Positions 25,982 through 46,560 of a stretch of 60,592 nucleotides of DNA are shown piece by piece. The number at the start of each line of letters is the position of its first letter. Position 1 is the first letter of the stretch. The translations under genes were made by a program, and so were the position numbers. The DNA comes from Thioalkalivibrio halophilus (GTDB taxonomy: Bacteria > Pseudomonadota > Gammaproteobacteria > Ectothiorhodospirales > Ectothiorhodospiraceae): NCBI RefSeq assembly GCF_001995255.1, contig NZ_MUZR01000006.1:14511-75102 (forward strand), given 5' to 3'. The notes under the pieces were generated by a model. That model was not told the origin of the DNA. It made no database searches and was given only the letters and a program-made list of their open reading frames with translations.

Positions 25982-27454
25982 TCAGCCGGCCTGCTCGGCC
26001 GTTCCGGTCGCGCCGCGGGTCTCCGGGGTGGTGCACGAGGCGAACAGGCTCCCCCGGGTGGGCGGCGCATCCGGCCGGAACCACTGCAGCCGCTGCTGCA
26101 GGGCCACCACGCTGCCCACGATGATGAGAGTGGGCGGCTGGACCTCTTCCCCTTTAACGATGTCCGGGAGGGTCTCCAGGGTACCCACCAGCACGCGCTG
26201 ATTCTGGGTGGTGCCCTGTTCCACCAGCGCGGCGGGGGTGGAGGCAGGCAGGCCGTGGGCGGCCATTTCCCGGCAGATGATGGGCAGCCCCGATAGCCCC
26301 ATGTAGAACACCACGGTCTGGTGCGGCTGGGCCAGCATGTCCCAGTTGAGGTCGATGGTCCCGTCCTGCAGATGTCCGGTCGCAAAGACCAGCGCCTGGG
26401 CGTGATCGCGGTGGGTGAGGGGGATCCCGGCGAACGAGGCGCAGCCGGCCGCGGCGGTGATCCCGGGCACCAGCTGGAACGGGATCCCGTGCTGCATCAG
26501 GCGGTCCACTTCTTCGCCCCCGCGGCCGAAGATGAACGGGTCGCCGCCCTTGAGTCGCAATACCCGCTTGCCTTCCTGTGCCAGCCGGATCAGCAGGTCG
26601 TTGATGTCCCCCTGTGGCAGCGTGTGGTGGTTGCGTTTCTTGCCGGCGTAGATCCGTTCGGCGTCACGGCGCACCAGTTCCAGGATCGCCGGGGAGACCA
26701 GGTTGTCGTATACCACCACGTCGGCCCGCTGCATCAGACGCAGCGCGCGGAAGGTCAGCAGGTCCGGGTCGCCGGGGCCGGCGCCGACCAGGAAGACCTC
26801 GCCACCGGTGTCGCGGGCGTCCACGCCCGCGTCCAGGGCTTTGTCCAGGGTCTCGCCGGCGGCCCGCTCACGCCCGGAAAGAAAGAGTTCCATCACCGGG
26901 CCCTCCAGAACCCGTTCCCAGAAGCGCCGGCGCAGCTCGGTATTCGGGATGCAGCGCTTTGCGCGTTCGCGAAACCCCTCGACCAGGGTCGCCAGGCGGC
27001 CGTAGGAGGCCGGAACCAGGCTTTCGATGCGCGCGCGCAACAGCCGCGCGAGTACCGGTGAGGTCCCGCCGGTGGAGATGGCGATCTGCAGGGGCGAGCG
27101 GTCGACCATGGCGGGCGTGATGAAGCTGCACAGGTCCGGCTGGTCGACCACGTTCACCGCGATGCCGTGCTGCTGGCCGCATTGCGAGACCCGACGGTTG
27201 ACTTCCTGGTCATCGGTGGCGGCCACCACCAGCACCCGCCCATGAATATCGTCTTCGCGGAAGCCGCGCTCGACATGCTCGATCTCTCCGCGGGACTGCA
27301 GTGCGGTCAGTTCCAGACACAGCTCCGGCGAGACCACCGTGACCCGGCCGCCGGCCTTGCGCAGCAGATCGATTTTGCGGGCCGCCACTACCCCGCCCCC
27401 GACCACCAGACAGGAGCGGTCACGGATGCGCATGAAAATCGGAAAAAAGTCCAT
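25982..27454 (-). CDS. cysG: Siroheme synthase (trifunctional)
   Basis: A 490-aa multifunctional enzyme. The N-terminal precorrin-2 dehydrogenase/ferrochelatase part (NAD motif LVVGGGVVAARKIDLLRKAG) is followed by uroporphyrinogen-III C-methyltransferase (VGAGPGDPDLLTFRALRLMQ, LRLKGGDPFIFGRGGEEV, VPGITAAAGCASFAGIPLTH). It makes siroheme, the cofactor of DsrAB encoded 6 kb away, which gives a functional link. A C-terminal tail of about 30 residues past the core is variable. ATG 27454 gives MDFFPIFM; the frame stays open upstream but lacks homology. Confidence 0.96.
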   Translation of the reverse strand: MDFFPIFMRIRDRSCLVVGGGVVAARKIDLLRKAGGRVTVVSPELCLELTALQSRGEIEHVERGFREDDIHGRVLVVAATDDQEVNRRVSQCGQQHGIAVNVVDQPDLCSFITPAMVDRSPLQIAISTGGTSPVLARLLRARIESLVPASYGRLATLVEGFRERAKRCIPNTELRRRFWERVLEGPVMELFLSGRERAAGETLDKALDAGVDARDTGGEVFLVGAGPGDPDLLTFRALRLMQRADVVVYDNLVSPAILELVRRDAERIYAGKKRNHHTLPQGDINDLLIRLAQEGKRVLRLKGGDPFIFGRGGEEVDRLMQHGIPFQLVPGITAAAGCASFAGIPLTHRDHAQALVFATGHLQDGTIDLNWDMLAQPHQTVVFYMGLSGLPIICREMAAHGLPASTPAALVEQGTTQNQRVLVGTLETLPDIVKGEEVQPPTLIIVGSVVALQQRLQWFRPDAPPTRGSLFASCTTPETRGATGTAEQAG

Positions 27455-27474
27455 TGGTGCGGTCCCCGCTCGTG

Positions 27475-27750
27475 TCAGCCGTTGCCGGCCTGCGGCAGCC
27501 GGTCCTCGAGTTCGCCATCCATGTCCAGTTCCACCAGTTCTTCGAAGCCCCCGACGTGGTCTTCGCCGAAATAGATCTGCGGAACCTCGGTCTGCCCGGT
27601 GATCCGTTCCAGTTTCGCGAGCGATTCGGGCGTGTCCGCGATCTCGATCTTTTCCAGTTGCTCCGTCAGTCCGCGCCGTTCCAGCAGGCGTTCGGCACGC
27701 TCGCAATAGGGGCAGTCGCTGCGGTAATACATCCGTATGGCGGTCATCAT
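27475..27750 (-). CDS. Glutaredoxin
   Basis: A 91-aa thioredoxin-fold dithiol glutaredoxin with CPYC active site (YRSDCPYCERAERLL), the cis-Pro motif EVPQIYFG and the glutathione-binding GGFEEL. ATG codons at 27750 and 27747 are both possible; GAGG lies 4-7 bases upstream. It sits 20 bases upstream of cysG in the same direction. A thiol role near sulfur-oxidation genes is plausible but not specific. Confidence 0.92.
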   Translation of the reverse strand: MMTAIRMYYRSDCPYCERAERLLERRGLTEQLEKIEIADTPESLAKLERITGQTEVPQIYFGEDHVGGFEELVELDMDGELEDRLPQAGNG

Positions 27751-27793
27751 CGAACCTCGTGCGCGTGGGAGGGCTGGACGGCGCCATCGGGCC

Positions 27794-28258
27794 TCAGCCG
27801 TCGAGCAGCTCCAGTTCGTCGGGGTCGAAGCCGGCCTGCGCGTACCAGTAGCGGGCTGCTTCCGGGTCGGGGTCCACGCCTTCCCCCCGGGCATACAGCA
27901 TCGCGAGGGTGGTCCGGGAGCCGGCCAGGCCCTGGCGGGCGGCCCGTTCGAGCCAGAGCACGGCCTGCTGTGGGTCCTGTTTCACGCATTCCCCGGAAAG
28001 AAACATGAAGCCCAGGCCGTGCTGGGCGAGCGGATCGCCCTGTTCGGCGGCTGCCCGCATCCAGTGGAAGGCCGCGTCCGGTCGGGCCACGCCGGCCAGG
28101 CCGGTCTGGTGCATGATTGCGACGCGATACTGGGCTTCCGGGTGGCCGGACTCCGCCAGCGGCAGGAGCAGGCCCATCGCGCGCGAGAACTCTCGGGCTT
28201 CAAACGCCGCGATACCGCTGCGCAGCGCCATCGCGGTGTCGTCATCGCTGTGGGTCAT
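27794..28258 (-). CDS. Sel1-repeat (TPR-like) protein
   Basis: A 154-aa cytoplasmic protein with three to four Sel1-like repeats: ESGHPEAQYRVAIMHQTG, EQGDPLAQHGLGFMFLSGE, and ARQGLAGSRTTLAMLYARGE. These are protein-interaction solenoids. It starts at ATG 28258 and lies 43 bases upstream of the glutaredoxin gene, so it probably heads a sel1-grx-cysG-S24 operon. Function is unknown. Confidence 0.83.
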   Translation of the reverse strand: MTHSDDDTAMALRSGIAAFEAREFSRAMGLLLPLAESGHPEAQYRVAIMHQTGLAGVARPDAAFHWMRAAAEQGDPLAQHGLGFMFLSGECVKQDPQQAVLWLERAARQGLAGSRTTLAMLYARGEGVDPDPEAARYWYAQAGFDPDELELLDG

Positions 28259-28359
28259 GGGTGCGCGCACTCGCCTGGACGGGTGGGTGGCCGGGCCCTC
28301 GACACGGGCAGGCCCGTTCAAGTGTTCGCCTCGAATGATCGCGCAAAGCCGCGGGGCCG

Positions 28360-28381
28360 TAACCCTCTCAATAGGGGTATA
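28360..28381. promoter_or_regulatory. Imperfect palindrome between divergent genes
   Basis: ACCCT and AGGGGT arms separated by a short AT-containing spacer (28362-28379), flanked by TA on both sides. It resembles the C-tract/G-tract palindromes upstream of the 67-aa and TauD-like genes. It lies 86 bases before the TrpD-like start and 102 before the Sel1 start, and could serve either gene. Confidence 0.4.
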
Positions 28382-28464
28382 TGCTGCCTGCCCGGGCATG
28401 GATATTCTCGCGTTTGCGGGGTGCGCCCCGACAACCCGATCTCAGGCTCCACGACAGGTTGCCC

Positions 28465-29586
28465 ATGCGCGAAGCCGCGAACGTCTCCCCCGATCCCGCA
28501 GCCGTGATGCGCGGCTGCATCCAGAAAGTTGCCACCGGTCCCGAACTGAGCAAGGACCTCTCGCGTGACGAAGCCCGGGCCGCCATGCAGGCGATCCTGG
28601 AGGGTCACGTGGACCCGGTGCAGGCGGCGGTCTTCCTGATCGGCCTGCGGATGAAGCGTGAGACCCTGGAGGAGAGCGAAGGGGTGCTGCAGGCGTTGCG
28701 CGACCACGCCACCACGGCCGTGGCCGACGTGGACCACCTGATCGATATCGCCGACCCATACGACGGCCATGTCCGCGGCCTGCCCGCGACGGCCTTTCTG
28801 CCCGCGGTGCTGGCGGCCTGTGGTCAGCCGGCTGTGTGTCACGGTATCGAATCCATTGGCCCCAAGTTCGGTGCTACTCCGCGGATGGTCCTGCGCGCGG
28901 CCGGTGTCGACACCGATCTTTCGCCGCAGGCGGCCGCCGCGCGCATTGCCCGGGAGGACATCGGCTGGGCCTACGTCGACATGCATGCGTTCTGCCCCGG
29001 ACTGCATGCGCTCACCGATCTGCGCAACCTGATCATCAAGCGCAACACCCTGACCACGGTCGAGAATCTGGTCGGCCCCGTACGTGCCCGCGGGCGCACC
29101 CACATCATGGTCGGCTACGTGCACAAGGCCTATCCCCCTGTCTATGCGCATCTTGCGCGTTACTCCGGCTTCGCTTCGGGGCTGGTGGTGCGCGGGGGCG
29201 AAGGGGGGGTGATTCCATCGTTGCAGCAGCCGGGGCGTGCATTTCTGTATCGCGACGGTGGTCCGGAGCGGGAGCTGGCGCTGGACCCGGCCGCGCTCGG
29301 CATCCGGGCCGAAAGTCGGGCCGTGCCCCTCCCGTCCGGGATCGTCTCCACCGAGGCGGGCAACGGCGCCCAGCCACAGGCCGACGGCCGGGAGGTCGCG
29401 CCGGAGGCAGCCCGGGCGGGGCTGGCGGCGTTGCGCGGCGAATCCGGGCCGATGCGTGACAGTCTCATCTACGCCGGCGCGCTTGCGCTGCACCACCTCG
29501 GGGCCGAGGACGACATGAATTCGGCCGCGGAGCGCGTGCGGCAGGTGCTGGACGACGGATCGGCCCTGGTCCGATTCGCGGGGTGA
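28465..29586 (+). CDS. TrpD-like glycosyl/phosphoribosyltransferase-fold protein
   Basis: A 373-aa protein with the two-domain fold of anthranilate phosphoribosyltransferase: an N-terminal helical part (MQAILEGHVDPVQAAVFLIG) and a nucleoside phosphorylase-like domain (LVVRGGEGGVIPSL). The PRPP-binding GTGGD loop of true TrpD is replaced by DPYDGHVRG, and the region GIESIGPKFGATPRMVL is also divergent. It is thus a TrpD paralogue of unknown substrate, not a tryptophan enzyme. ATG 28465 was chosen because homology starts there; the frame opens 84 bases earlier. Similar proteins occur in other sulfur oxidisers as I recall them. Confidence 0.8.
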   Translation: MREAANVSPDPAAVMRGCIQKVATGPELSKDLSRDEARAAMQAILEGHVDPVQAAVFLIGLRMKRETLEESEGVLQALRDHATTAVADVDHLIDIADPYDGHVRGLPATAFLPAVLAACGQPAVCHGIESIGPKFGATPRMVLRAAGVDTDLSPQAAAARIAREDIGWAYVDMHAFCPGLHALTDLRNLIIKRNTLTTVENLVGPVRARGRTHIMVGYVHKAYPPVYAHLARYSGFASGLVVRGGEGGVIPSLQQPGRAFLYRDGGPERELALDPAALGIRAESRAVPLPSGIVSTEAGNGAQPQADGREVAPEAARAGLAALRGESGPMRDSLIYAGALALHHLGAEDDMNSAAERVRQVLDDGSALVRFAG

Positions 29587-29595
29587 GCCGCACAT

Positions 29596-29610
29596 CCGGG
29601 GTTGCCCCGG
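29596..29610 (+). repeat. Short hairpin after the TrpD-like gene
   Basis: Perfect 6-bp stem CCGGGG/CCCCGG with a TTG loop, 9 bases after the TrpD-like stop and before the 66-aa gene. No T-run follows; it may attenuate or only mark the gene boundary. Confidence 0.35.
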
Positions 29611-29649
29611 CATGCGGACCCAGTATTCAACGGGAGAAAAGGAGAGATC

Positions 29650-29850
29650 ATGGACAAGCAGACCTATCACGAGGCGAGCAAGCGCATGGAGAGTCTTGGT
29701 GTGGACCCGGACTACATCATCGGCTGGCAGACCGGCTTCCTGCGCAGCCCCAGGCTGGAAGAGCAGCGGGTAACGCCGCCCTACGACGCGGGATACCAGG
29801 ATGGCCTGGAGGGCAAGACCGACGGCCACGGGAGCTGGGTCAAGCAGTAA
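29650..29850 (+). CDS. Small conserved-looking protein, 66 aa
   Basis: A 66-aa soluble protein (MDKQTYHEASKRMESLG...) with two similar turns, YIIGWQTGFL and YDAGYQDGLEGK. The G-x2-D/T-G pattern slightly recalls ribosome modulation factor, but I would not assign it. An excellent RBS (aaaaggagag) precedes ATG 29650. It is followed by a strong terminator hairpin, so it is likely a real, well translated gene. Function is unknown. Confidence 0.7.
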   Translation: MDKQTYHEASKRMESLGVDPDYIIGWQTGFLRSPRLEEQRVTPPYDAGYQDGLEGKTDGHGSWVKQ

Positions 29851-29855
29851 TGCCC

Positions 29856-29895
29856 GTGCCCGGGGCGGCGTGATGCCGCCGCCCCGGAGGGGCAC
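29856..29895. terminator. Strong bidirectional hairpin
   Basis: Inner stem GGGGCGGCG/CGCCGCCCC (9 bp) and outer stem GTGCCC/GGGCAC, with a small bulge and a 6-base loop. It lies between the convergent 66-aa and 201-aa genes and probably ends both transcripts. No T-run is present. Confidence 0.65.
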
Positions 29896-29910
29896 GGTGA
29901 AGGGGCCACC

Positions 29911-30516
29911 CTACGGATCGGCGCCGGCCCCGGCTGCCGAGGGCAGCAGGGACTCCAGCGCCGGTACGAAGGCCTCAACCGCTTCCGGGCCTTCGGTGGC
30001 CATGACCTGGTCGATGGCCCATTGTCGATTGTGCGGGCCCAGGGCCTCGCTGACATGCACGGCAAAGGCCCGCCACAGGCTGAAGCCCGGGCCTTCGTCG
30101 ATATCGTAGCGGCACTCGGCATATTCATCGCTGCGCCGGTTGATCCGGTTAACAAAGGCCTCGCGCACACCGTCCACCGGGCCCGGAATGCGGTCCGGCC
30201 CGGCCCGTAGCTCCGCCACGTTTTCCTCGAGGATTGCCGCCAGGCGCAGCGCCATCGCGGTGATCAGCCGGCCGCGTTCTTCCTGCGACAGGCGTTCTCC
30301 GAGACGACGGTCGGTCAGGTGCAGCAGAAAGATGGCGAACTCCTGGATCAGCTGCAGGCGCTGCTCCTGGGTGCGGGTCTCGAAGTCCGCGTTTTCCAGG
30401 TTGAGCACGCCGTTGCAGGCGGTCCTCCACGCGTTGGATGCGGCTGCGCTGGCGATGTCTTCCGTGGTTCGCGGCCGTTCGTCCTGTTTCCAGCGCTTGC
30501 GCAGGCGCAGGCTCAT
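29911..30516 (-). CDS. Hypothetical protein, 201 aa
   Basis: A soluble, helix-rich protein with a basic N-terminus (MSLRLRKRWKQDERPRTTED) and helical blocks such as NAWRTACNGVLNLENADFET and QEFAIFLLHLTDRRLGERLS. No known domain is recognised. Its ATG overlaps the stop of the DUF3050 gene (ATGA), so the two are translationally coupled and may act together. It is the last gene of the minus-strand block next to dsr. Confidence 0.8.
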   Translation of the reverse strand: MSLRLRKRWKQDERPRTTEDIASAAASNAWRTACNGVLNLENADFETRTQEQRLQLIQEFAIFLLHLTDRRLGERLSQEERGRLITAMALRLAAILEENVAELRAGPDRIPGPVDGVREAFVNRINRRSDEYAECRYDIDEGPGFSLWRAFAVHVSEALGPHNRQWAIDQVMATEGPEAVEAFVPALESLLPSAAGAGADP

Positions 30517-31319
30517 GCCGGCAGCCCCAGCCGTTGGCGCACTCCCTCCCACAGATCCAGCCGGTCCTGAATGGCGGCTCGGGCGGCATCGCGCGCCTGT
30601 GCCAGTCGCTCGAGCGAGTCACCGCACAGCGCCTCGACCAGGCGCAGCGACAGCGGGCCGTGGAAATCCTCGTCCAGGTGGATGTGGCGCTGCAGGTAGA
30701 GGTGAAACATGGGTGCGTTTTGTTCGTCGATCTGCATGCGGGCGAGAAACTGCCGGAACATGCCGGGGATGACGTGTTCGCGGCCCAGTGCCAGCGCCGC
30801 GGCAACCTCGTGCGATCGGCCTCTTTCGATGCGCGCGAAGGTGCGGCGGACGAACTCGGCGGAGGGGGCGGGTGCGATCCCGGCATTCAGTGCCGCATCA
30901 ATGCCCTGTTCGGCTGCCAGGGCCACGAACCGGCGGGCGGGGTCGGGGTCGGCCCCGACCTCTTCCATGGCGGCGCAATACAGCTCGAAGTGGCTCAGAT
31001 GGAGGTCCTGCCCGTCGGGGGCGGGGATCCGGTCGGACTCTTCTTCCAGGACCAGTTCGTTGATGAAGCGGCATACCGAGGCATCCGCCCCGGGGGTCCA
31101 GGGATAGCGAATCGGCGCGACCTGCTGCTGGAGGAATTTGATCAGGGACATGAAGTCCCAGACCGGGTAGACGTGGCATTCCATGAATCCGCGCAGATCA
31201 CGCAGATCACGCAGGGCGTAGACCGGGTGTTCTTCCAGCTCGCGTTGCAGCGGGGCCAGGCTGTCCAGGCCCAGCTCCGGGGGCGATGCGGGGTTGAAAG
31301 ATTGCGCGTTGGCCGTCAT
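30513..31319 (-). CDS. DUF3050 family, haem-oxygenase-like fold protein
   Basis: A 268-aa protein matching DUF3050: FMECHVYPVWDFMSLIKFLQ at about 46-65 and a closing HIHLDEDFHGPLS at 212-224. The fold belongs to the haem-oxygenase-like group, many of whose members are diiron oxidases or oxygenases. Candidate metal ligands are Glu48/His49, Glu92-94, His170/Glu171, His182 and His206-220, but they are not proven. ATG 31319 follows the 67-aa gene by 67 bases. It shares a block with a TauD-type oxygenase, suggesting joint oxidation chemistry (inference). The substrate is unknown. Confidence 0.82.
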   Translation of the reverse strand: MTANAQSFNPASPPELGLDSLAPLQRELEEHPVYALRDLRDLRGFMECHVYPVWDFMSLIKFLQQQVAPIRYPWTPGADASVCRFINELVLEEESDRIPAPDGQDLHLSHFELYCAAMEEVGADPDPARRFVALAAEQGIDAALNAGIAPAPSAEFVRRTFARIERGRSHEVAAALALGREHVIPGMFRQFLARMQIDEQNAPMFHLYLQRHIHLDEDFHGPLSLRLVEALCGDSLERLAQARDAARAAIQDRLDLWEGVRQRLGLPA

Positions 31320-31386
31320 GGGTGTCTCGCCGCCCCGGGGCATGCACGGGTGCATGACCCGGGCTGCCATCCGTGCGGGTGACGGG

Positions 31387-31590
31387 TCAGCGGTGCGAGC
31401 CCTTTTCTTCGTGGGCCATCTCGACCAGATCCATGGCGACGTCGCGGAACCGCTGGCGGTAGTTGTGCAGCGGGTGGCCTTCCTCGGCGAGATAATACTC
31501 CTCCGGGGTGACGCCATGGGCGTGCTCGTATTCGATGAACTTTTTCTGCATGTCCAGCAGTTTCTGGATCTGTTCCTGCTTTTTGCTCAT
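31387..31590 (-). CDS. Small hypothetical protein, 67 aa
   Basis: A 67-aa charged, helical protein (MSKKQEQIQKLLDMQKKFIE...), with YEHAHGVTPEEYYLAEEGHP and a His/Glu-rich tail. There is no known domain. GGAG lies 8 bases before ATG 31590. Upstream is a good extended -10 promoter with a TACCCC/GGGGGTA palindrome. It heads the 67-aa, DUF3050, 201-aa transcript. Its small size and charge suggest an accessory or regulatory partner. Confidence 0.75.
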   Translation of the reverse strand: MSKKQEQIQKLLDMQKKFIEYEHAHGVTPEEYYLAEEGHPLHNYRQRFRDVAMDLVEMAHEEKGSHR

Positions 31591-31631
31591 GGGGTGGTCT
31601 CCATCCGGGGGGTGGGTGAGGATCCGCCGGC

Positions 31632-31676
31632 AATATAGCACCGCCATTCGGTCGCTCTTACCCCTCTTTGGGGGTA
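31632..31676 (-). promoter_or_regulatory. Promoter with TACCCC/GGGGGTA palindrome
   Basis: On the minus strand, TACCCCCAAAGAGGGGTA (31676-31659) is followed by an extended -10 TGCTATATT (-10 at 31637-31632). The palindrome covers the -35 region. The first 12 bases, TACCCCCAAAGA, recur exactly upstream of the TauD-like gene at 38 rather than 39 bases from the -10. A dedicated regulator binding here is likely. Confidence 0.65.
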
Positions 31677-31711
31677 GTCCGGCAGGGTCGGCCGGCGGTT
31701 CCGAAAACACC

Positions 31712-32389
31712 TCAGTGCATGGCCGGCGACGAATGCACCGGGGCCACGTCCTTGTGGCCGTCGAACAGGCCGCAGCCCATCAGCCGCTCGGGACCCAGGC
31801 CCTCGCGCTGCAGGCGCAGGGAGGCGAGCGGGTCGAGATCGGCCACCAGGAGCCGCCGCGTGAACAGCGCCCCATACGGGGTCTGCAGCTGATGACTGCG
31901 ACCGCACAGCAGCTTGGAGATCGGCACGCCCATGGCGCTCAGCGATGCCGCGACCTCCGCGAGGAAGGCATCTTCGTCCTGATCCGGGCGGGCGATGACA
32001 TGCCGGGCCATCAGGGCCGGTTGTGCCCGTAACGGCACGATCGTGAACTCCCCGATCTTCAGGGGCGCCGATCCCAGATCCAGTCGGGTCCCCCGGATCT
32101 CCCGGGCTTGCTCCACCCGGGTGCGCGGCAGGCGCAGGCGCAGGCGGGTGCGTCGCGACAGCGGAATGGTCGCCTCCGGTCGTTGCCAGCCGTTGCCGGA
32201 TTCGGCCCCGTGGATCAAATGAATGCCGGCCCGGGGTTCGTCCTGCAGCCAGGGCAGGAGTGCGCAGATCTGCTGCGACAGCGCATGCGCGTGGTCCAGC
32301 GGCAGTGCCGGGCAGTGCACGCGGAACGCGAGATCCACCGTGTCTTCGGCCTGCTCCGGTGTGGTGGCGGGGGTGTCGTCCCAGAACAT
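31712..32389 (-). CDS. Orphan Cas6-like RAMP protein (Cmx6-like)
   Basis: A 225-aa protein resembling the Cas6/Cmx6 group of RAMP-fold CRISPR RNA endonucleases. The C-terminal glycine-rich loop GLGPERLMGCG (197-207) fits the G-h-G-x5-G-h-G RAMP pattern and is followed by LFDGHKD. N-terminal His33/His35 and His57/His60 are candidate catalytic residues. No CRISPR array and no other cas gene exist in the window. GGAGG precedes ATG 32389, 26 bases after the TauD-like gene, so the two form a transcript. It may process a cellular RNA or only bind RNA; a CRISPR role is unlikely. Family assignment is from pattern recall. Confidence 0.7.
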   Translation of the reverse strand: MFWDDTPATTPEQAEDTVDLAFRVHCPALPLDHAHALSQQICALLPWLQDEPRAGIHLIHGAESGNGWQRPEATIPLSRRTRLRLRLPRTRVEQAREIRGTRLDLGSAPLKIGEFTIVPLRAQPALMARHVIARPDQDEDAFLAEVAASLSAMGVPISKLLCGRSHQLQTPYGALFTRRLLVADLDPLASLRLQREGLGPERLMGCGLFDGHKDVAPVHSSPAMH

Positions 32390-32415
32390 GTTCGGTGTGC
32401 CTCCGGGGAACGGGT

Positions 32416-33333
32416 TCAGGTGCCGGGCACGCGGCGGGCAAACCGCGCCCGCAGGAGCAGGCGCTGCCGGCTCCCGGCGAACGAGTCGTAGGTGAAACCG
32501 GTGCGTGCATGCAGCACGTTATTGCAGACCACACCCTCGCCGGGAGCCAGTCGGTGACGCAGCACCCCGGGCCCCTCGGCCTCCAGGATCTCGCGGATGC
32601 GTCCGGCCGCGGCGCGGGTCGTCGGGTCGTCACGCCACTCGATGCTGCGGGTACGGGCGGTGTAGCGCATGTGCAGCCGGCCGGATGCGGGATCCACGCT
32701 GAAGACGGGACCGGTGGCGGCCGGTCGCAGGGTCCGCCCGTCCTGCACGTTGGCGGGGATGGTCAGGGCCCGGGGATGGCAGAGGGCGGTGATCCATTCC
32801 GGATTCTCGTCGCGCAGGCGGATGTACAGCAGCTCCGGATCCAGAAACAGGTTCTCGCCACCGCTGGGGGCATCGGACACGCAATGCAGGAGCATCGCCC
32901 GAATGCGCCGATCCGGCGGATTGTAATAGCCATCGCAATGCCAGCTGAGGGGCCGGTTGCTGTACGGGATATATCCGGCCCGACGCCCATCGTCGCAGAC
33001 CTGAAGGGCACTGATCCCGTCCCCGTCCGCGCATTCGTGGGGATCCGGCCGGGTGAATCCCAGGGCGCCGCAGAGGGCGGCGAATCTTTCGCGGTCCAGT
33101 GCCGCCGCCCCGGAGGGGCAGCGATAGAACGCCAGGTTGTGTTGCCGAATCCGCTCGCACAGGGCCTCCAGCTCCGCGGCCGTGGGGCGCGCCGGATCGT
33201 TCAGTTCCACGGTCAGGTCGGCGGGACCGGGGGTCCCGCAGGCAAGGCGCCGCGCGCGCCATGCCCGCCAGGATTCGTCGGCCTGCAGGTCGAATGGCGA
33301 GGCGCAGGTGGATGCACGGACAGGGGCGTTCAT
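32416..33333 (-). CDS. TauD/TfdA-type Fe(II)/2-oxoglutarate-dependent dioxygenase
   Basis: A 305-aa non-haem iron oxygenase with metal triad His132-x-Asp134 (SWHCDGYYN) and distal His275 (NVLHARTGF), and Arg277 as likely 2-oxoglutarate contact. GGENLFLDPELLY and MLLHCVSDAPSGG are typical core segments; it is closer to the gamma-butyrobetaine hydroxylase-like side of the family. The substrate is unknown. A CGGAGG RBS precedes ATG 33333. It is divergent from dsrA and heads the minus-strand block with the Cas6-like gene, behind a promoter overlapped by an inverted repeat. Confidence 0.85.
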   Translation of the reverse strand: MNAPVRASTCASPFDLQADESWRAWRARRLACGTPGPADLTVELNDPARPTAAELEALCERIRQHNLAFYRCPSGAAALDRERFAALCGALGFTRPDPHECADGDGISALQVCDDGRRAGYIPYSNRPLSWHCDGYYNPPDRRIRAMLLHCVSDAPSGGENLFLDPELLYIRLRDENPEWITALCHPRALTIPANVQDGRTLRPAATGPVFSVDPASGRLHMRYTARTRSIEWRDDPTTRAAAGRIREILEAEGPGVLRHRLAPGEGVVCNNVLHARTGFTYDSFAGSRQRLLLRARFARRVPGT

Positions 33334-33400
33334 GGATGGACGGCCTCCGGGGTTCCGGGCCCGCCGTGCCGGTCAATGCGGGGCGGGCCATACGGCTTCC

Positions 33401-33451
33401 AGTGTAGGGGTGCCCGGTATACCCACAACCATTCTTTGGGGGTATCCCGGG
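33401..33451 (-). promoter_or_regulatory. Promoter and operator of the TauD-like gene
   Basis: On the minus strand the -10 is TACACT (33406-33401) and a -35-like TTGTGG lies 16 bases upstream. Two 12-bp arms, GGGTATCCCGGG (33440-33451) and CCCGGTATACCC (33413-33424), form an 11/12 inverted repeat spanning the -35 box. The upstream arm includes the TACCCCCAAAGA motif shared with the promoter at 31632-31676. This layout suits repression, but activation cannot be excluded. Confidence 0.6.
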
Positions 33452-33563
33452 AGCCTGTGGCCACACCGCGACGGAATGCGGTTTCCGCGACCCGAGCATC
33501 AATTTCGCGCGGATGGGGCCGGGCTTCTGACCCTGCCACAGGGGATAGTCGCGGGCTTGCGCG

Positions 33564-33610
33564 TACCCCCCAACAGCAGGATGTCCAGCGCCGCGGTGCC
33601 GGCCTAGAGT
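33564..33610 (+). promoter_or_regulatory. Possible dsrA promoter region
   Basis: In the 441-base gap upstream of dsrA, TACCCCCCAACA at 33564 lies 41 bases before a -10-like TAGAGT (33605-33610). This resembles the motif-to--10 spacing of the two divergent promoters. No convincing -35 box is present. Transcription would start about 155 bases before dsrA, leaving a long leader that contains no gene I can see. Confidence 0.35.
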
Positions 33611-33774
33611 TTGCGGCGAAGGACGGGGTCGCCGCCCGCCAGAGGGCGCCGGCCCATCGCAAAAACAACCTCGGGCAGGGGAGCGGCGCCGGCTCCGTCA
33701 GGGATCACGTGATCGTGGCGGCGTTACCGGCGCACGAGCCCCGCGCAAGCGGCACCCCGGCAAGGAGTATTGTC

Positions 33775-35046
33775 ATGGCCAAGAATCACCATCCCACTCC
33801 CATGCTCGATGAGCTCGAGAACGGTCCGTGGCCGAGCTTCATCTCCGGCATCAAGAACCTGCGCGACCGGCATCCCGACGACCGCATCCAGGGCATGAGC
33901 AATGACCTGCTGGGGCAGCTCGAGCATTCCTACGAGACCCGGAAGGGTTACTGGAAGGGCGGCACGGTCTCGGTGTTCGGGTATGGCTCCGGGATCATCC
34001 CGCGGTTCTCCGAAGTCGGTCATGCGTTTCCGAGCTCGAAGGAGTTCCACACCGTGCGCGTGCAGCCGCCGGCGGGCAACTTCTACACCACCGATATCCT
34101 GCGCCAGCTCGCGGACTCCTGGGAAAAGTACGGTTCCGGCCTGGTGACCTTCCATGGCCAGACCGGCAACGCGATGTTCATCGGCGTGGACACCGACAAC
34201 ACCCAGGCCTTCTTCGACGAGATCAACGAATACGGGTTTGACCTCGGCGGTGCCGGGCCTTGCGTGCGCACCGGCATGTCCTGCGTGGGGGCCGCGCGCT
34301 GCGAGCAGTCCTGCGCCAACGAACAGCGCATCCACCGCACCCTGCTGAACCGGTTTACCGACGACGTGCACCGTCCGTCGCTGCCGTACAAGTTCAAGTT
34401 CAAGGTCTCCGGCTGCCCGAACGACTGTGTCAACGCCATCGAACGTTCCGATTTCGCGGTCATCGGCACCTGGCGTGACGAGATGAAGATCGACCAGGAC
34501 AAGGTCCGCGAATTCATCCAGGAGAAGGGACGTGCCGAGGTCATCGACAACGTCACCACCCGTTGCCCGACTGGCTGCATGACCCTGCATGACGACGACA
34601 CCCTGGAGGTCGAGGACAAGGACTGCGTGCGCTGCATGCACTGCCTGAACGTGATGCACACCGCCCTTTCGCCGGGTGACGAGCGCGGGGTCACCATCCT
34701 CCTGGGGGGCAAGCGCACGCTCAAGATCGGCGACCTGATGGGCACGGTGATCGTGCCCTTCATGAAGCTCGATACCGACGAGGACTACGCGCAGCTCACC
34801 GAACTGGCCGAAAACATCATCGATTTCTGGGCCGAGAACGGTCTGGAGCACGAGCGTTGCGGCGAGATGATCGAGCGCATTGGCCTGATGAACTTCCTCA
34901 AGGAGCTCGGCATTCCCGCCGACCCGAACATGGTCAATCACCCGCGCCAGAGTTCCTACGTGCGCCTCGACGGCTTTGACGAGGCGGCCGAGGAGCAGCT
35001 GCGTCGCAGGATGGAACAGCGGGAACAGGCGGCGGCCGGCCAGTAG
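33775..35046 (+). CDS. dsrA: Reverse dissimilatory sulfite reductase alpha subunit
   Basis: A 423-aa DsrA; with DsrB it forms the cytoplasmic siroheme enzyme that oxidises DsrC-bound sulfur to sulfite. Cys clusters for the siroheme-linked [4Fe-4S] centre are seen in GPCVRTGMSCVGAARCEQSC, and a ferredoxin-like insert has CPTGCM and CVRCMHCLNVM. ATG 33775 has aaggag 9 bases upstream. The frame is open far upstream but homology begins here. First gene of the operon. Oxidative type is inferred from the accompanying dsrEFH and dsrL. Confidence 0.97.
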   Translation: MAKNHHPTPMLDELENGPWPSFISGIKNLRDRHPDDRIQGMSNDLLGQLEHSYETRKGYWKGGTVSVFGYGSGIIPRFSEVGHAFPSSKEFHTVRVQPPAGNFYTTDILRQLADSWEKYGSGLVTFHGQTGNAMFIGVDTDNTQAFFDEINEYGFDLGGAGPCVRTGMSCVGAARCEQSCANEQRIHRTLLNRFTDDVHRPSLPYKFKFKVSGCPNDCVNAIERSDFAVIGTWRDEMKIDQDKVREFIQEKGRAEVIDNVTTRCPTGCMTLHDDDTLEVEDKDCVRCMHCLNVMHTALSPGDERGVTILLGGKRTLKIGDLMGTVIVPFMKLDTDEDYAQLTELAENIIDFWAENGLEHERCGEMIERIGLMNFLKELGIPADPNMVNHPRQSSYVRLDGFDEAAEEQLRRRMEQREQAAAGQ

Positions 35047-35100
35047 GTCGACGGTCTCCCGAGACTCCCCCCGAAATCGCTAGCAAGGCTGGAGCAGAAC

Positions 35101-36180
35101 ATGGCACAGGCACAGGAAATGCGTTCCCCCATCGAGTCCGGGTGCCCGGACGGATTCCAGTACATGCATCCGGTGATGCGCCGGAACTTCGGCATGTGGG
35201 ATCACCACGACCATCCCGCGCCGGGCGTGCTGTATCACGAGTCCGAGACCGGCGAGGGTATCTGGACCGTCCGCGCCGGTACCCAGCGCATCCTCGACGT
35301 GTTCACCCTGCGCACGCTCTGTGACATCGGTGACCAGTACGGCGACGGCTACGTGCGTTTCACCACGCGTTCCAACATCGAATACATGGTGGATTCCGAG
35401 GCCAAGGTCGAGCCGCTGGTGAAGGCCCTGGAGGACGCCGGTTTCGTGGTCGGCGGCACCCAGAACTCGGTCACGATGATCTCGCATACTCAGGGATGGC
35501 TGCACTGCGACATCCCGGGGACCGACGCCTCCGGCGTGGTCAAGGCGATGATGGACGAACTGATCGACGAGTTCCGCAACACGAATATGCCCAATCGGGT
35601 GCACATGACCACCTCCTGCTGCCAGATCAACTGCGGCGGCCAGGGCGACATCGCGATCAACGTGCAGCACACCAAGCCGCCGAAGATCAACCACGACCTG
35701 GTCGCCAATGTCTGCGAACGCCCCTCGGTAGTCGCGCGCTGCCCGGTGGCGGCGATCCGCCCGGCGGTCGTCAACGGCAAGCCGTCGCTGGAAGTCGACG
35801 AGCAGAAATGCATGTGCTGCGGCGCCTGCTTCCCGCCGTGCCCGCCGATGCAGATCAACGACGCCGAACACACCAAGCTGTCGATCTGGGTGGGCGGCAA
35901 TCACTCGAATGCGCGCGGCAAGCCGACCTTCCAGAAGCTGGTGGCCTCCGGCATCCCGAACAACCCGCCGCGCTGGCCCGAGGCCACCGCGATCGTCAAG
36001 CGCATCCTCCGGACCTATCAGGAAGACGGCCGCGACTGGGAGCGCATCAACGACTGGATCGAGCGTATCGGCTGGCCGGAGTTCTTCAACAAGACGGGGC
36101 TGCCGTTCACCCGCTATCACGTGGACAACTGGCGCGGTTCGCGCAACAGCCTCAACGCGTCCGCCCATATCCGCCAGTAG
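35101..36180 (+). CDS. dsrB: Reverse dissimilatory sulfite reductase beta subunit
   Basis: A 359-aa DsrB, partner of DsrA. Siroheme/[4Fe-4S] cysteines are in TTSCCQINCGGQGDIAIN and ARCPVAAI, and the ferredoxin domain has CMCCGACFPPCPP. The region MRRNFGMWDHHDHPAPGVL is typical of the N-terminus. ggag precedes ATG 35101, 54 bases after dsrA. DsrE follows after 45 bases. Confidence 0.97.
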   Translation: MAQAQEMRSPIESGCPDGFQYMHPVMRRNFGMWDHHDHPAPGVLYHESETGEGIWTVRAGTQRILDVFTLRTLCDIGDQYGDGYVRFTTRSNIEYMVDSEAKVEPLVKALEDAGFVVGGTQNSVTMISHTQGWLHCDIPGTDASGVVKAMMDELIDEFRNTNMPNRVHMTTSCCQINCGGQGDIAINVQHTKPPKINHDLVANVCERPSVVARCPVAAIRPAVVNGKPSLEVDEQKCMCCGACFPPCPPMQINDAEHTKLSIWVGGNHSNARGKPTFQKLVASGIPNNPPRWPEATAIVKRILRTYQEDGRDWERINDWIERIGWPEFFNKTGLPFTRYHVDNWRGSRNSLNASAHIRQ

Positions 36181-36225
36181 CCCGCACGGGCTCCACCTTC
36201 GGCCTGACAACATAAAGGGCAGAGC

Positions 36226-36618
36226 ATGAAATACGCGATCCTGGTCAACGAAGGCCCGTATCAGCATCAGGCGTCCGATACGGCCTATCAGTTCTGCAAG
36301 GCCGCGATTGAACGCGGGCACGAGGTCTTTCGCGCCTTCTTCTATCACGACGGCGTGCACAACGGCTCCCGTTTCCCGGTGCCGCCGCAGGACGATCGCA
36401 ACATCCCGGTGCAGTGGTCCGAGCTCGCCGCGGCCCACGACATCGACCTGGTGGTCTGCATCGCCGCTGCGCAGCGCCGCGGCATCCTCGACGAGGGCGA
36501 GGCGCAGCGTCAGGGCAAGGATGGCGACAACATCGCGCCCGGATTCCGCATCTCCGGTCTCGGCCAGTTGATCGAGGCCGGGATCCAGTGCGACCGGCTC
36601 CTGGTGTTCGGGGACTGA
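36226..36618 (+). CDS. dsrE: Sulfur-relay protein DsrE
   Basis: A 130-aa subunit of the DsrE2F2H2 hexamer, which passes persulfide sulfur to DsrC. The active-site Cys is at position 78 (DLVVCIAAAQRRG), the same position as the sulfur-carrying Cys of the Allochromatium protein. Presence of dsrEFH marks the oxidative Dsr pathway. It lies between dsrB and dsrF. Confidence 0.96.
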   Translation: MKYAILVNEGPYQHQASDTAYQFCKAAIERGHEVFRAFFYHDGVHNGSRFPVPPQDDRNIPVQWSELAAAHDIDLVVCIAAAQRRGILDEGEAQRQGKDGDNIAPGFRISGLGQLIEAGIQCDRLLVFGD

Positions 36619-36686
36619 GAGTCGTCCGCAGCGCGTGCGGCCGGCAGGGCCGCGCCCAACCAATCGTCTGACAAAGGTGGGAAACG

Positions 36687-37079
36687 ATGTCCGAACCCTG
36701 GGAAGAAGAAGGCCCCGGTGAAATCAGGAAGTTCATGTACGTCAATCGCAAGGCGCCGTACGGAACCATCTATGCGCTGGAATCCCTGGAGGTGGTGCTG
36801 ATCGCCGCCGCGTTCGAGCAGGACGTCAGCATGGTGTTCATGGATGACGGCGTCTTTCAGATCAAGAAGGGGCAGGACACCGGGCAGATCGGCATGAAGA
36901 ACTTTTCGCCGACCTACCGCGCGCTGGAGGGCTATGACGTGGAAAAGCTCTATGTCGAAGCCGAGTCGCTCTCCGAGCGAGGCCTGTCCGAAGACGATCT
37001 GCTGGTGCCGGTCGAGGTGATGTCGCGGGACGCGATCGCCCGATTGATGGACGAGCAGGACGTGATCCTGAGCTTCTAG
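36687..37079 (+). CDS. dsrF: Sulfur-relay protein DsrF
   Basis: A 130-aa DsrE/F-like fold protein (KFMYVNRKAPYGTIYALESL, VSMVFMDDGVFQIKKGQ). It has no Cys in the usual position, consistent with a structural role in the DsrEFH hexamer. RBS aaggtggg. The 68-base gap after dsrE contains only a small hairpin (CCGCA/TGCGG). Confidence 0.95.
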   Translation: MSEPWEEEGPGEIRKFMYVNRKAPYGTIYALESLEVVLIAAAFEQDVSMVFMDDGVFQIKKGQDTGQIGMKNFSPTYRALEGYDVEKLYVEAESLSERGLSEDDLLVPVEVMSRDAIARLMDEQDVILSF

Positions 37080-37092
37080 GAGACCCCTGAAG

Positions 37093-37395
37093 ATGCTGCA
37101 TACCGTGAACAAGTCGCCCTTCGAACGGAACACGCTCAACGCCTGCCTGGGTCACGCGCTGCCGGATTCGGCGGTCCTGCTGATCGAGGACGGGGTGCTG
37201 GCGGCCGTACAGGGAACCGCCCACGAGACCGAGATGCGCAAGGCACTCGAACAACATTCGGTGTCCGTGCTCGGCCCCGACCTGAGCGCCCGGGGGCTGT
37301 CCCCGGAGCAGGTCATTCCCGGCATCAATGTGGTTGATTACGCCGGGTTCGTCGAGCTGACCGAAAACCACGACAAGGTTCAGGCCTGGCTCTGA
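37093..37395 (+). CDS. dsrH: Sulfur-relay protein DsrH
   Basis: A 100-aa DsrH/TusB-like subunit completing the DsrEFH hexamer. A conserved N-terminal Cys (Cys18 in NTLNACLGHAL) is present, and the segment AVLLIEDGVLAAVQGT is typical. It lies 13 bases after dsrF and 49 before dsrC. A small GCCCG/CGGGC hairpin at 37400-37415 separates it from dsrC. Confidence 0.94.
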   Translation: MLHTVNKSPFERNTLNACLGHALPDSAVLLIEDGVLAAVQGTAHETEMRKALEQHSVSVLGPDLSARGLSPEQVIPGINVVDYAGFVELTENHDKVQAWL

Positions 37396-37399
37396 TAAC

Positions 37400-37415
37400 G
37401 CCCGGCCGTACGGGC
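37400..37415 (+). repeat. Small hairpin between dsrH and dsrC
   Basis: Stem GCCCG/CGGGC with a 6-base loop just after the dsrH stop. It is too short and lacks a T-run to be a firm terminator, but it could set the 5' end of a separate dsrC mRNA, which is known to be made independently in other sulfur oxidisers. Confidence 0.35.
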
Positions 37416-37444
37416 CTGTCACCGCGCAACGACTGGAGGAATCC

Positions 37445-37777
37445 ATGCCCATTGAAGTCAACGGCAAGACGTACGAAACCGACGAGGAAGGCTACCTGGC
37501 CAACCTGAGTGACTGGAGTGAAGAAGTGGCCAGCGCCATGGCCGAGGTTGACGGCACCTCGCTGGACGAGAATCACTGGGAAGTCATCAACTTCCTGCGT
37601 GAATACTACGAGGAATACCAGATCGCTCCGGCAGTGCGTGTGCTGACCAAGGCGATCGGCAAGAAGCTCGGACCCGACAAGGGCAACAGCAAGTACCTCT
37701 ATGAGCTGTTCCCCTACGGCCCGGCCAAGCAGGCCTGCAAGTACGCCGGTCTGCCCAAGCCGACCGGCTGCGTCTGA
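37445..37777 (+). CDS. dsrC: DsrC sulfur carrier protein
   Basis: A 110-aa DsrC/TusE family protein that binds sulfur as a persulfide or trisulfide and is the physiological substrate of DsrAB and DsrMKJOP. The flexible C-terminal arm has both redox cysteines, Cys98 (QACKYAG) and penultimate Cys109 (PTGCV), so this is a true DsrC rather than TusE. RBS ctggagga. It is flanked by hairpins on both sides. Confidence 0.97.
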   Translation: MPIEVNGKTYETDEEGYLANLSDWSEEVASAMAEVDGTSLDENHWEVINFLREYYEEYQIAPAVRVLTKAIGKKLGPDKGNSKYLYELFPYGPAKQACKYAGLPKPTGCV

Positions 37778-37779
37778 AT

Positions 37780-37847
37780 CCCGCCTCGCGGCGGGTAGCT
37801 CCACTCCGCGGGGGCGGCGGCCTGCCTCCGACGCGCCCTCGCGGAGT
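37780..37847 (+). terminator. Double hairpin between dsrC and dsrM
   Basis: A CCCGCC/GGCGGG hairpin (37780-37795) starts 2 bases after the dsrC stop. A long 14-bp stem, ACTCCGCGGGGGCG/CGCCCTCGCGGAGT (37803-37847, one wobble), follows. No T-run exists. They probably act as a partial terminator or 3' stabiliser that raises dsrC mRNA relative to dsrM and later genes. The rest of the gap to 37986 has no visible gene. Confidence 0.6.
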
Positions 37848-37986
37848 CCTGATTCGCTTCGTCCCGTTCACCGGACGGGACCATGTGCCATGCCGGCTCC
37901 CGGTCGCCGTATGGGTGACCCGGGGAGGACGCGCCGGCCGGACCACGGGACGATCGGGCCCCGGTGGCTGACAGGAGGACAGGTCA

Positions 37987-46230: not shown

Positions 46231-46560
46231 ATGCTCAGCCTGACCCCGGCCGCGGCCGATCAGATCCTGAACTCCGCCCGCGAGAGCGGCATGGAACACA
46301 CCGCCCTGCGGATTGTTGCGCAGCGCAAGTCCGACGGAGCGATCGAATACGGCATGGGTTTCGACGATACCGGGCGCGAGGACGACCTGGCCTTCAAGAG
46401 CGAGGGCGTTCAGCTGGTGGTCGACCCCCTTTGCGTGGATTTGATGAAGAACGCGGTGCTGGATTACGTGGAGTTCGAGCCCGGCGAGTTCCGGTTCATC
46501 TTCCTCAACCCCAACGATCCGCACTATCGGCCCCCGGAGGACTCCGGTCCGTCTTCGTGA
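46231..46560 (+). CDS. dsrR: DsrR, IscA-like protein lacking Fe-S cysteines
   Basis: A 109-aa A-type carrier fold protein (MLSLTPAAADQILNSARES). The three cysteines of IscA (CxnCxC) are missing: the C-terminus reads LNPNDPHYRPPED and only one Cys (DPLCVDL) exists, as in Allochromatium DsrR. It cannot hold a cluster in the usual way and is thought to act after transcription. RBS cgaggagg. The 3' end overlaps the convergent gene by 56 bases. Confidence 0.9.
   Translation: MLSLTPAAADQILNSARESGMEHTALRIVAQRKSDGAIEYGMGFDDTGREDDLAFKSEGVQLVVDPLCVDLMKNAVLDYVEFEPGEFRFIFLNPNDPHYRPPEDSGPSS

Follow-up and report, generated by a model that had tools for sequence, protein, structure and literature searches.

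A dsrA-linked gene block of Thioalkalivibrio halophilus as a probable accessory module of reverse Dsr sulfur oxidation

The reverse Dsr pathway is a main bacterial route for the oxidation of stored and reduced sulfur, and a module without assigned function that is consistently tied to dsrA in Gammaproteobacteria marks a visible gap in this pathway. The five-gene block next to dsrA in Thioalkalivibrio halophilus is almost certainly a slimmed copy of such a module, conserved as an accessory to oxidative (reverse) Dsr sulfur oxidation. The module is conserved, is linked to dsrA, has a promoter element in common with it and includes a Cas6-like protein (Cas6L) that lacks a CRISPR context. It suggests that sulfur oxidation has a further level of control or chemistry, so far unrecognised, and opens the way to concrete experimental tests of function. 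No published description of the module was found in the open literature searched, and the accessible parts of that literature do not assign these divergently oriented genes to the Dsr system. The gene from which the module diverges is the one with which the dsrABEFHCMKLJOPNRS cluster of Allochromatium vinosum begins.

The features of the window (the whole stretch of DNA analysed, 60.6 kb) that concern the block are the following:

29650 to 29850, plus strand: globule sulfur oxidation protein of the Alvin_2107 family (NF049856, 96.2 bits against a cut-off of 60), convergent flank of the block
29911 to 30516, minus strand: all-helical 201-aa protein (P201), no family or fold match
30513 to 31319, minus strand: DUF3050 haem-oxygenase-like diiron-type protein, 268 aa (PF11251), lineage-specific member
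31387 to 31590, minus strand: 67-aa protein (P67), outside known families
31591 to 31711: Cas6L-P67 junction; RspA-like gene (Cys-less DsrC paralogue) missing here by comparison with the loci of relatives
31659 to 31676: operator-like palindrome TACCCC-TCTTTG-GGGGTA upstream of P67, containing one copy of a 12-bp motif
31712 to 32389, minus strand: Cas6L, 225 aa (PF09559, TIGR02807)
32390 to 32415: TauD-Cas6L junction; gene for a 63-aa protein (P63) missing here by comparison with the loci of relatives
32416 to 33333, minus strand: TauD/TfdA-type Fe(II)/2-oxoglutarate oxygenase, 305 aa, opening the block and running divergently from dsrA
33433 to 33444, plus strand: second copy of the 12-bp motif TCTTTGGGGGTA, upstream of tauD, located by motif scan
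33578 to 33611, plus strand: possible dsrA promoter, AGGATGTCC - 16 nt - CCTAGAGTT, read from the window sequence
33775 to 35046, plus strand: dsrA (TIGR02064, 609.7 bits), divergent partner

All five reading frames are present and packed on the minus strand between 29911 and 33333, with a 4-nt overlap between those of DUF3050 and P201. The block is divergent from dsrA, whose plus-strand reading frame begins at 33775, and the arrangement proposed in the initial annotation of this DNA is thus confirmed. Approximate dN/dS values against a close relative (locus L085) are about 0.1 to 0.27 for each of the five, as would be expected of real genes subject to purifying selection.

The initial annotation had treated the five families as one unit, and this does not hold. 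DUF3050 occurs in only 10 of 80 named loci, all of them Thioalkalivibrio records, and is a lineage-specific member; the widespread module holds P63 and the RspA-like gene instead. The recurrent order in relatives is TauD-P63-Cas6L-RspA-P67...P201, with P63 between TauD and Cas6L in all 16 relatives' loci that span this junction, and the RspA-like gene between Cas6L and P67 in 13 of 16, being found neither in L079, L085 and L086 nor in the window. A search of the T. halophilus genome with an RspA/DsrC alignment matched only the true DsrC, and a search for P63, which had no positive control of its own, gave no match. Judged from these comparisons, the block as drawn is incomplete with respect to two further genes, and P63 and the RspA-like gene appear to have been lost from this copy of the module.

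The tie to sulfur oxidation that had been proposed for the block is strongly supported by co-occurrence of Cas6L and dsrA. In a sample of 369 Gammaproteobacteria genomes, with labels that run to about 180 families, Cas6L was found in 118 and dsrA in 119; both were present in 111, Cas6L only in 7, dsrA only in 8 and neither in 243. The start of Cas6L lies 1.46 to 5.1 kb from dsrA for 82 of the 118 Cas6L matches, and each of these 82 close pairs is divergent. A conserved neighbourhood in other dsr genomes, the lack of which would have spoken against the earlier proposal, is therefore present, and the genomic evidence strongly supports a module that is tied to dsr. In Parabeggiatoa/Thiomargarita/Marithrix-type loci, P63-Cas6L does not adjoin dsrA. 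Cas6L was found in none of 48 dsrA-bearing genomes from other classes of the phylum; thus, it is not required wherever dsrA occurs.

The intergenic region between dsrA and tauD carries a palindrome, TATCCC-N4-GGGATA, in 31 of 50 loci, as compared to 0.1 expected from resampled sequences, and its conservation suggests common control of the block and dsr. The palindrome upstream of P67 is the only match of a relaxed form of this pattern in the window. The 12-bp motif that had been described as shared by two promoters was indeed located in two copies, one upstream of P67 (31665-31676) and one upstream of tauD; at no more than one mismatch, these are the only matches of TCTTTGGGGGTA in the window, where 0.07 would be expected. 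The AGGATGTCC / CCTAGAGTT pair is the window version of a promoter-like pair in relatives (consensus of 50 intergenic regions), and CCTAGACTT has 16 matches in the 80 named loci, 15 of which lie between dsrA and tauD. A scan for sigma-70-type promoters and terminators found none, nor does the window contain a match to the sigma-70 consensus. The block may be transcribed as two units.

As to mechanism, our best guess is that sulfur oxidation is tuned by a Cas6-type protein, recruited as an RNA-binding protein or RNase, which acts together with an oxygenase and a DsrC-like partner. The module, divergent from dsrA, has an operator region in common with it. Cas6L would be a former CRISPR-type hairpin-binding endoribonuclease that now is recruited to a cellular RNA and, with RspA where this is present, it might adjust the expression of the Dsr pathway or sulfur delivery post-transcriptionally. 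TauD, coupled to P63, would catalyse a hydroxylation that depends on O2 and 2-oxoglutarate and either serves the Dsr pathway or senses it, and DUF3050 may be a second iron oxygenase, added in the Thioalkalivibrio lineage. We give the combination of accessory module and proposed mechanism somewhat less than an even chance, and action at the RNA level is put forward tentatively. It is also rather doubtful, though it can be envisaged, that a Cas6 endoribonuclease left CRISPR immunity, became fixed in gammaproteobacterial chemolithotrophic sulfur oxidation and, with a Cys-less DsrC paralogue and an O2-dependent oxygenase, senses or processes cellular RNA and in this way controls reverse Dsr. Should Cas6L indeed act on RNA, energy metabolism would clearly have taken over a piece of CRISPR machinery.

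The oxygenases offer a different, somewhat less probable explanation, namely that the module is metabolic: TauD and P63, here with DUF3050, would hydroxylate an organosulfur or sulfonate carrier to yield sulfite or a recycled Dsr carrier, with Cas6L and the small proteins as assembly or regulatory helpers. Oxidative Dsr yields sulfite, which is also released by taurine dioxygenase, and TauD-P63 is the part of the module that reaches furthest, being divergent from dsrA without Cas6L in four of seven examined loci from other classes. TauD scores 88.2 bits with PF02668 (cut-off 27), and its HxD motif (H132, D134), H275 and several Arg residues are invariant in 13 aligned sequences. It has the facial-triad residues and fold family in common with TauD/TfdA oxygenases, TmpA and gamma-butyrobetaine/trimethyllysine dioxygenases. 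However, a single solved relative was found at E <= 0.001, TmpA (E 1.2e-8), which acts on a trimethylammonium phosphonate rather than a sulfonate, and no NCBIfam substrate equivalog scores above cut-off (best 42.2 bits against 400). A known substrate class (GBB, TML or the TmpA substrate) was considered for TauD and rejected, since the equivalog scores are far below cut-off. The block TauD differs from the enzymes matched in NCBIfam also by its operon, which in relatives includes P63 and Cas6L, and a metabolic role gives no reason for the fixed presence of a Cas6-type RNA protein in this operon. The dsr-linked gene may be read as taurine metabolism during annotation. Two TauD homologues were interpreted in this way in the accessible text of PMC4287430, which does not imply that either is the dsr-linked gene.

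DUF3050 scores 276.7 bits with PF11251 (cut-off 22.2), and its solved relative is 9vwb (E 2e-71). Residues E94, H110, E181, H212, D216 and H220 are invariant in 15 aligned sequences and match the diiron ligand pattern proposed for DUF3050 (PMC4520260, accessible text). The family and proposed ligands are the same as in DUF3050 haem-oxygenase-like proteins such as MgoB of the mgo operon and 9vwb, but the five genes of the block include no mgo partner (NRPS, AurF-type oxygenase), and within the dsr module DUF3050 is found only in Thioalkalivibrio-type loci.

No family of Pfam or NCBIfam reaches its cut-off with P67 or P201 of the window, and the P67 copy of locus L073 has no family in Pfam, NCBIfam or PADLOC; P67 is 63-88% identical in nine relatives. 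P201 is present in 32 of the 80 named loci (31 full-length), and its predicted model (pLDDT 89.7) has six helices and no PDB match at E <= 0.001. The RspA-like gene of relatives, for which we use the name of Cys-less DsrC homologues, is a clear member of the DsrC/TusE/DsvC sulfur-relay family (L073 copy: TIGR03342, 99.3 bits, cut-off 53.5; PF04358, 113.5 bits). It differs from this family in that the sulfur-carrying C-terminal Cys is missing: all 12 aligned copies end in RRKGGY, whereas two true DsrC rows end in TGCV. This has led us to consider that RspA, as a TusE/DsrC look-alike, and Cas6L compete with TusE at tRNA thiolation and steer sulfur to energy metabolism, in agreement with the resemblance of DsrEFH and DsrC to TusBCD and TusE (PMC3397948, accessible text). 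Such crosstalk is unlikely, as Cas6L stays where RspA is absent, in the T. halophilus genome and the blocks of sister loci, and nothing tested links Cas6L to tRNA.

It is still less probable that the genes are fast-evolving passengers that came with the dsr island and contribute nothing to sulfur oxidation. In favour of this, inheritance as an island is possible for dsr clusters, the module proteins evolve faster than DsrA, with 71-87% identity as compared to 94%, and some lineages have lost members, as with P63 and RspA in the window. Against this, linkage and divergent orientation hold over the family-rich sample, active-site residues are invariant in the DUF3050 and TauD alignments, dN/dS is well below 1, the operator common to dsrA and tauD is conserved, and TauD-P63 is retained beside dsrA in another class.

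Cas6L belongs to the same sequence family as Cas6 of type I-B / I-MYXAN CRISPR systems (Cas6/Cmx6; 8fcj/8fcu). It exceeds the cut-offs of Pfam (PF09559, 198.2 bits against 26.7) and NCBIfam (TIGR02807, 120.5 against 98.85) and scores strongly in PADLOC, so that NCBIfam and PADLOC models label it 'type I-MYXAN Cas6' and CRISPR Cas6. Its predicted model (pLDDT 89.7) has the Cas6 RAMP fold (Foldseek 8fcu_B, E 3.1e-16, TM 0.76/0.80). The likeness extends to the conserved His in LPxDH and the C-terminal GxGxxRxxGCGxF loop. This residue, H33, presumably the catalytic His, and the Gly-rich loop occur in all of the best 30 of 118 HMM-found copies in the class sample; H33 is also present in six of six cyanobacterial plasmid Cas6 sequences and three of four divergent copies (L205-L208). 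A count of 81 of 81 for H33 and the loop is subject to bias, since LPLDHA and AESGNGWxR were among the patterns used to retrieve the loci. An SGNGWxRP insertion is found in 24 of the 30 HMM-found copies and is absent from the cyanobacterial plasmid Cas6 and L205-L208.

Unlike CRISPR Cas6/Cmx6, Cas6L is linked to dsrA and has no adjoining cas operon or array in the scanned loci, except for L130. A simple exact-repeat scan found no CRISPR array beside Cas6L in the window, L205-L214 or L070-L089, and the sole exception, by the same type of scan, is a weak array of four repeats in L130, one of the 80 named loci, at a distance of about 3 kb from Cas6L. That Cas6L is an ordinary Cas6, adjacent to dsr by accident, which processes the crRNA of a distant CRISPR system in trans, agrees with its family scores and with Cas1 on other contigs (C8, C32) of the T. 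halophilus genome, but is very improbable, as Cas1 has no match in 10 of the family's 17 genomes with Cas6L (five of these are rated 99% complete), both Cas6L and a dsrA above cut-off are missing from 15 of the 22 genomes with Cas1, Cas6L tracks dsrA over the 369 genomes, and a FastTree local support of 0.997 separates it from the six Cas6 sequences of cyanobacterial plasmids.

Against action at the RNA level, folding and Rfam revealed no RNA substrate of a recruited Cas6L, and no metabolite was identified for the module either. The four longer junctions (three in the module and dsrA-dsrB) have mean z values of -0.36 to -1.18, two short junctions gave z near 0, and Rfam found nothing on the window stretch. 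Among 6-bp hairpin words, TATCCC of the promoter palindrome is shared most widely; it occurs in 14 of 68 loci against 0.0 expected and looks more like a DNA operator than an RNA substrate. The next hairpin word, AGGGGG, is present in 8 of 68 loci, as compared to 0.3 expected.

The five minus-strand genes divergent from dsrA that the initial annotation had drawn are present in that arrangement, and they belong to a module tied to dsr, which has a promoter element in common with it and includes a Cas6-type protein without a CRISPR setting. The features concerned are the following.

29650-29850, plus strand: globule-sulfur gene of the Alvin_2107 family, the next plus-strand gene to the block
29911-33333, minus strand: the block, with tauD, cas6L (Cas6-like) and the genes for P67 (67 aa), DUF3050 and P201 (201 aa)
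33775: dsrA, divergent from the block

Families recognised in the window are TauD/TfdA, Cas6 (PF09559, 198 bits; TIGR02807, above cut-off) and DUF3050 (277 bits), and neither P67, P201 nor P63, a 63-aa protein located between TauD and Cas6L in relatives, gave a Pfam or NCBIfam score above cut-off or a PADLOC family. TauD keeps its metal-binding residues, and TmpA is the one solved structure related to it at E ≤ 0.001; DUF3050, with 9vwb as solved relative, keeps the six proposed diiron ligands. The model of P201 is confident and consists of six helices, with no fold match at E ≤ 0.001 and no PDB sequence match below E 0.03. Approximate dN/dS values against the sister locus L085 are 0.1-0.27 in all five genes.

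Of the 47 genomes from the organism's own family, 17 have Cas6L, 16 have DUF3050 and 15 have dsrA above cut-off. The Cas6L genomes beyond those with such a dsrA (G028 and G033) hold dsrA fragments in broken assemblies, and in G034, the one genome with DUF3050 but no Cas6L, a contig end truncates the block. Comparison by tblastn of twenty stretches fetched from family relatives revealed an identical gene order in those holding the block, divergent from dsrA wherever the stretch includes that gene. Second dsrA copies (about 570-579 bits) exist elsewhere in three family genomes, G012, G041 and G042, besides the module-linked one.

The association extends through the class. In an evenly drawn sample of 369 Gammaproteobacteria, with co-occurrence counted per genome and dsrA accepted at E below 1e-30, Cas6L was found in 118 genomes and dsrA in 119: both in 111, only Cas6L in 7, only dsrA in 8 and neither in 243 (Fisher p = 7e-75, a value that ignores shared ancestry). 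Measured between the low coordinates of the matches, 82 of the 118 Cas6L matches start 1.46-5.1 kb from dsrA, and all 82 pairs are divergent, so that the conserved neighbourhood next to dsr that had been proposed as a check does exist in other genomes. The other 36 comprise 27 with the two genes on different contigs, 2 with them far apart on one contig, and the 7 without dsrA. Three of the 8 dsrA-only loci (L228-L230) and three of the 7 Cas6L-only loci (L209, L212, L214) were inspected. On the partner's side the contig breaks off in all three of the former and in two of the latter; L214 offers about 2.3 kb on that side, without dsrA. Locus L209 (10984-11589, genome G172) carries the module in a genome rated 100% complete that gave no dsrA match; since its contig ends inside TauD, dsrA may be absent from the assembly only.

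Among 398 genomes drawn evenly from the whole phylum, dsrA occurs in 53 and Cas6L in 5, the latter being all 5 dsrA genomes of the same class and none of the 48 dsrA genomes of other classes. Four new same-class loci have Cas6L, RspA (a Cys-less DsrC paralogue), P201 and TauD beside dsrA, in a different order and with no P63 match. Seven dsrA loci of other classes were examined: in four, TauD-P63 stands divergent from dsrA and Cas6L is missing, and the remaining three show no part of the module. Because TauD-P63 is kept at dsrA without Cas6L in these four, it may be the older piece, to which Cas6L, RspA and P201 would have been added within the Gammaproteobacteria.

Searching named genomes with the alignment of Cas6L yielded 200 relatives, the best 80 of which include Thioalkalivibrio, Sedimenticola selenatireducens, Ca. 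Thiomargarita nelsonii, Ca. Marithrix, Thioploca, Ca. Thiothrix singaporensis and a sponge symbiont. In these best 80 of 200, many on short contigs, P63 lies near Cas6L in 75, TauD in 60, an RspA-like gene (recognised by a tail ending in GGY) in 59, dsrA in 51, P67 in 48 and P201 in 32; where at least 5.5 kb is available on the dsrA side, dsrA is near in 39 of 52. Loci of the Parabeggiatoa/Thiomargarita/Marithrix type have P63-Cas6L without dsrA or TauD nearby. The block and its conserved neighbourhood hold, but DUF3050 is rejected as a core member, being found in only 10 of these 80 loci. In relative L072 the DUF3050 of the block is covered only partly by tblastn and its frame looks broken. 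Second DUF3050 copies, 46-47% identical to that of the window, occur outside the block in L080 (4930-5730) and L088 (8428-9228), with no other block gene there.

P63 occupies the TauD-Cas6L junction in all 16 relatives' loci that span it, and 13 of these 16 have an RspA-like gene (DsrC family, tail RRKGGY, no C-terminal cysteines) at the Cas6L-P67 junction, where none was found in L079, L085, L086 or the window. In the window's genome (99.96% complete), P63 was not found in a search run without positive control, and a search for RspA/DsrC returned true DsrC only. With both genes missing, the window holds a reduced version of the module. In Allochromatium vinosum, Alvin_1508 (TusE/DsrC family), a candidate for the RspA-like gene, falls together with dsrAB in one transcriptome, with a log2FC of -2.92 versus -4.72 for dsrA (PMC11267869). 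Other lineages share an uncharacterised protein of about 105-111 aa, encoded downstream of P67 (L127:12315-12647, L156:11919-12254, L171:12361-12681, L197:13454-13771); its copy in L127 belongs to no family of Pfam or NCBIfam. Downstream of the dsr region, at 46505-47650 on the minus strand of the window, lies a DUF6866 (Sfum_1244-type) gene. It may be part of a wider neighbourhood of dsr, as L171 has a member of this family between P67 and P201, and L139 a gene of similar look.

The shared motif also stood up to closer inspection. There are exactly two copies of the 12-bp motif TCTTTGGGGGTA in the window (0.07 expected), one upstream of tauD and one upstream of P67. In the dsrA-tauD intergenic regions of relatives, TA[T/C]CC-N6-GG[G/A]TA is present in 31 of 50 loci, versus 0.1 in resampled sequences, at 157-278 bp upstream of dsrA; the 50 remain from 63 intergenic regions after removal of 13 that duplicated named loci or were closely related to them. 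In the alignment, the consensus is TATCCC-N4-GGGATA, followed by CACCCCAT..GTAGGGT.TTC, CCTAGA.TTC, AAGGAGA and the start codon, and looks like an upstream activator site with a promoter. A DNA operator fits better than an RNA hairpin, since the outer pair changes to C/A in 7 and to T/G in 2 of the 31 sites, and since the palindrome is placed upstream of the promoter-like pair of dsrA. A relaxed form precedes RspA in 5 of 63 cases (0.14 expected), P67 in 2 of 48 (0.18) and sel1 in 2 of 19 (0.24). Its single match in the window (31659-31676, upstream of P67) overlaps the 12-bp motif, which is therefore probably a local variant of the conserved putative operator. On the dsrA-coding strand, GTAGAATACG occurs just upstream of tauD in L153 (8823), L156 (8794) and L166 (8830), possibly as a further promoter element.

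Going by its sequence, Cas6L could well be a working RNA-binding protein or RNase that stands outside CRISPR. Its model (pLDDT 89.7) matches 8fcu_B best among solved structures (E 3e-16, TM 0.76/0.80). His33 is present in 81 of 81 copies at named loci, a figure biased by retrieval, as these loci were fetched by patterns including the conserved stretches LPLDHA and AESGNGWxR; the check was repeated on the best-scoring 30 of the 118 HMM-found copies from the class sample, all of which have His33 and the C-terminal Gly-rich loop, with an SGNGWxRP insertion present in 24 of the 30. Divergent copies (L205-L208) keep the His in 3 of 4 and the insertion in none.

It can be envisaged that Cas6L with RspA would act in RNA-level tuning, and that TauD-P63 would perform an O2-dependent step. 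Against this proposal stand the partial loss of the module in the window, the absence of Cas6L from the sampled dsrA genomes of other classes, and the lack of an RNA substrate: no signal was consistent across the six junctions that were folded, window 27000-38500 has no Rfam match, and a shared-hairpin scan of 68 of the 80 named loci ranked the promoter palindrome first (14 loci versus 0.0 expected), followed by AGGGGG (8 versus 0.3) and GCCCGC (6 versus 0.3). Almost as likely is a metabolic explanation in which TauD-P63 chemistry forms the core of the module. The RspA-P67 intergenic regions of three relatives (L123, L124, L125) contain very long inverted repeats of AGTGGCAAGT-like units, with fold energies below -100 kcal/mol.

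A CRISPR Cas6 working beside its array is rejected, as Cas6L tracks dsrA and not Cas1 or arrays: 10 of the 17 Cas6L-bearing family genomes, five of them rated 99% complete, gave no Cas1 match, and a simple exact-repeat scan detected no array in the window or the relatives' loci L070-L089 and L205-L214, and one weak array, about 3 kb from Cas6L, among the 80 named loci. Spread by phages or plasmids is likewise rejected, with no phage-record match and no viral-contig relative of Cas6L or P63 confirmed.

No description of a Cas6-dsr link was found in the open literature searched; in the papers checked that name Cas6, dsrA and sulfur-oxidizing, Cas6 figures only in ordinary CRISPR systems or as a gene-list entry. 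Any novelty would lie in the module as a whole; the members that can be recognised (TauD, Cas6L, DUF3050 and the RspA-like protein) come from known families.

The plasmid matches of Cas6L are six cyanobacterial genes annotated as Cas6/Cmx6, which have His33, lack the SGNGWxRP insertion and split from 91 other copies in the tree (FastTree local support 0.997). Five of them lie beside cas3. The sixth, on plasmid pGMOR1 of Gloeobacter morelensis (L217:2971-3762), has no cas3 but PAPS-reductase-family and cupin genes nearby, and is possibly another Cas6 outside CRISPR.
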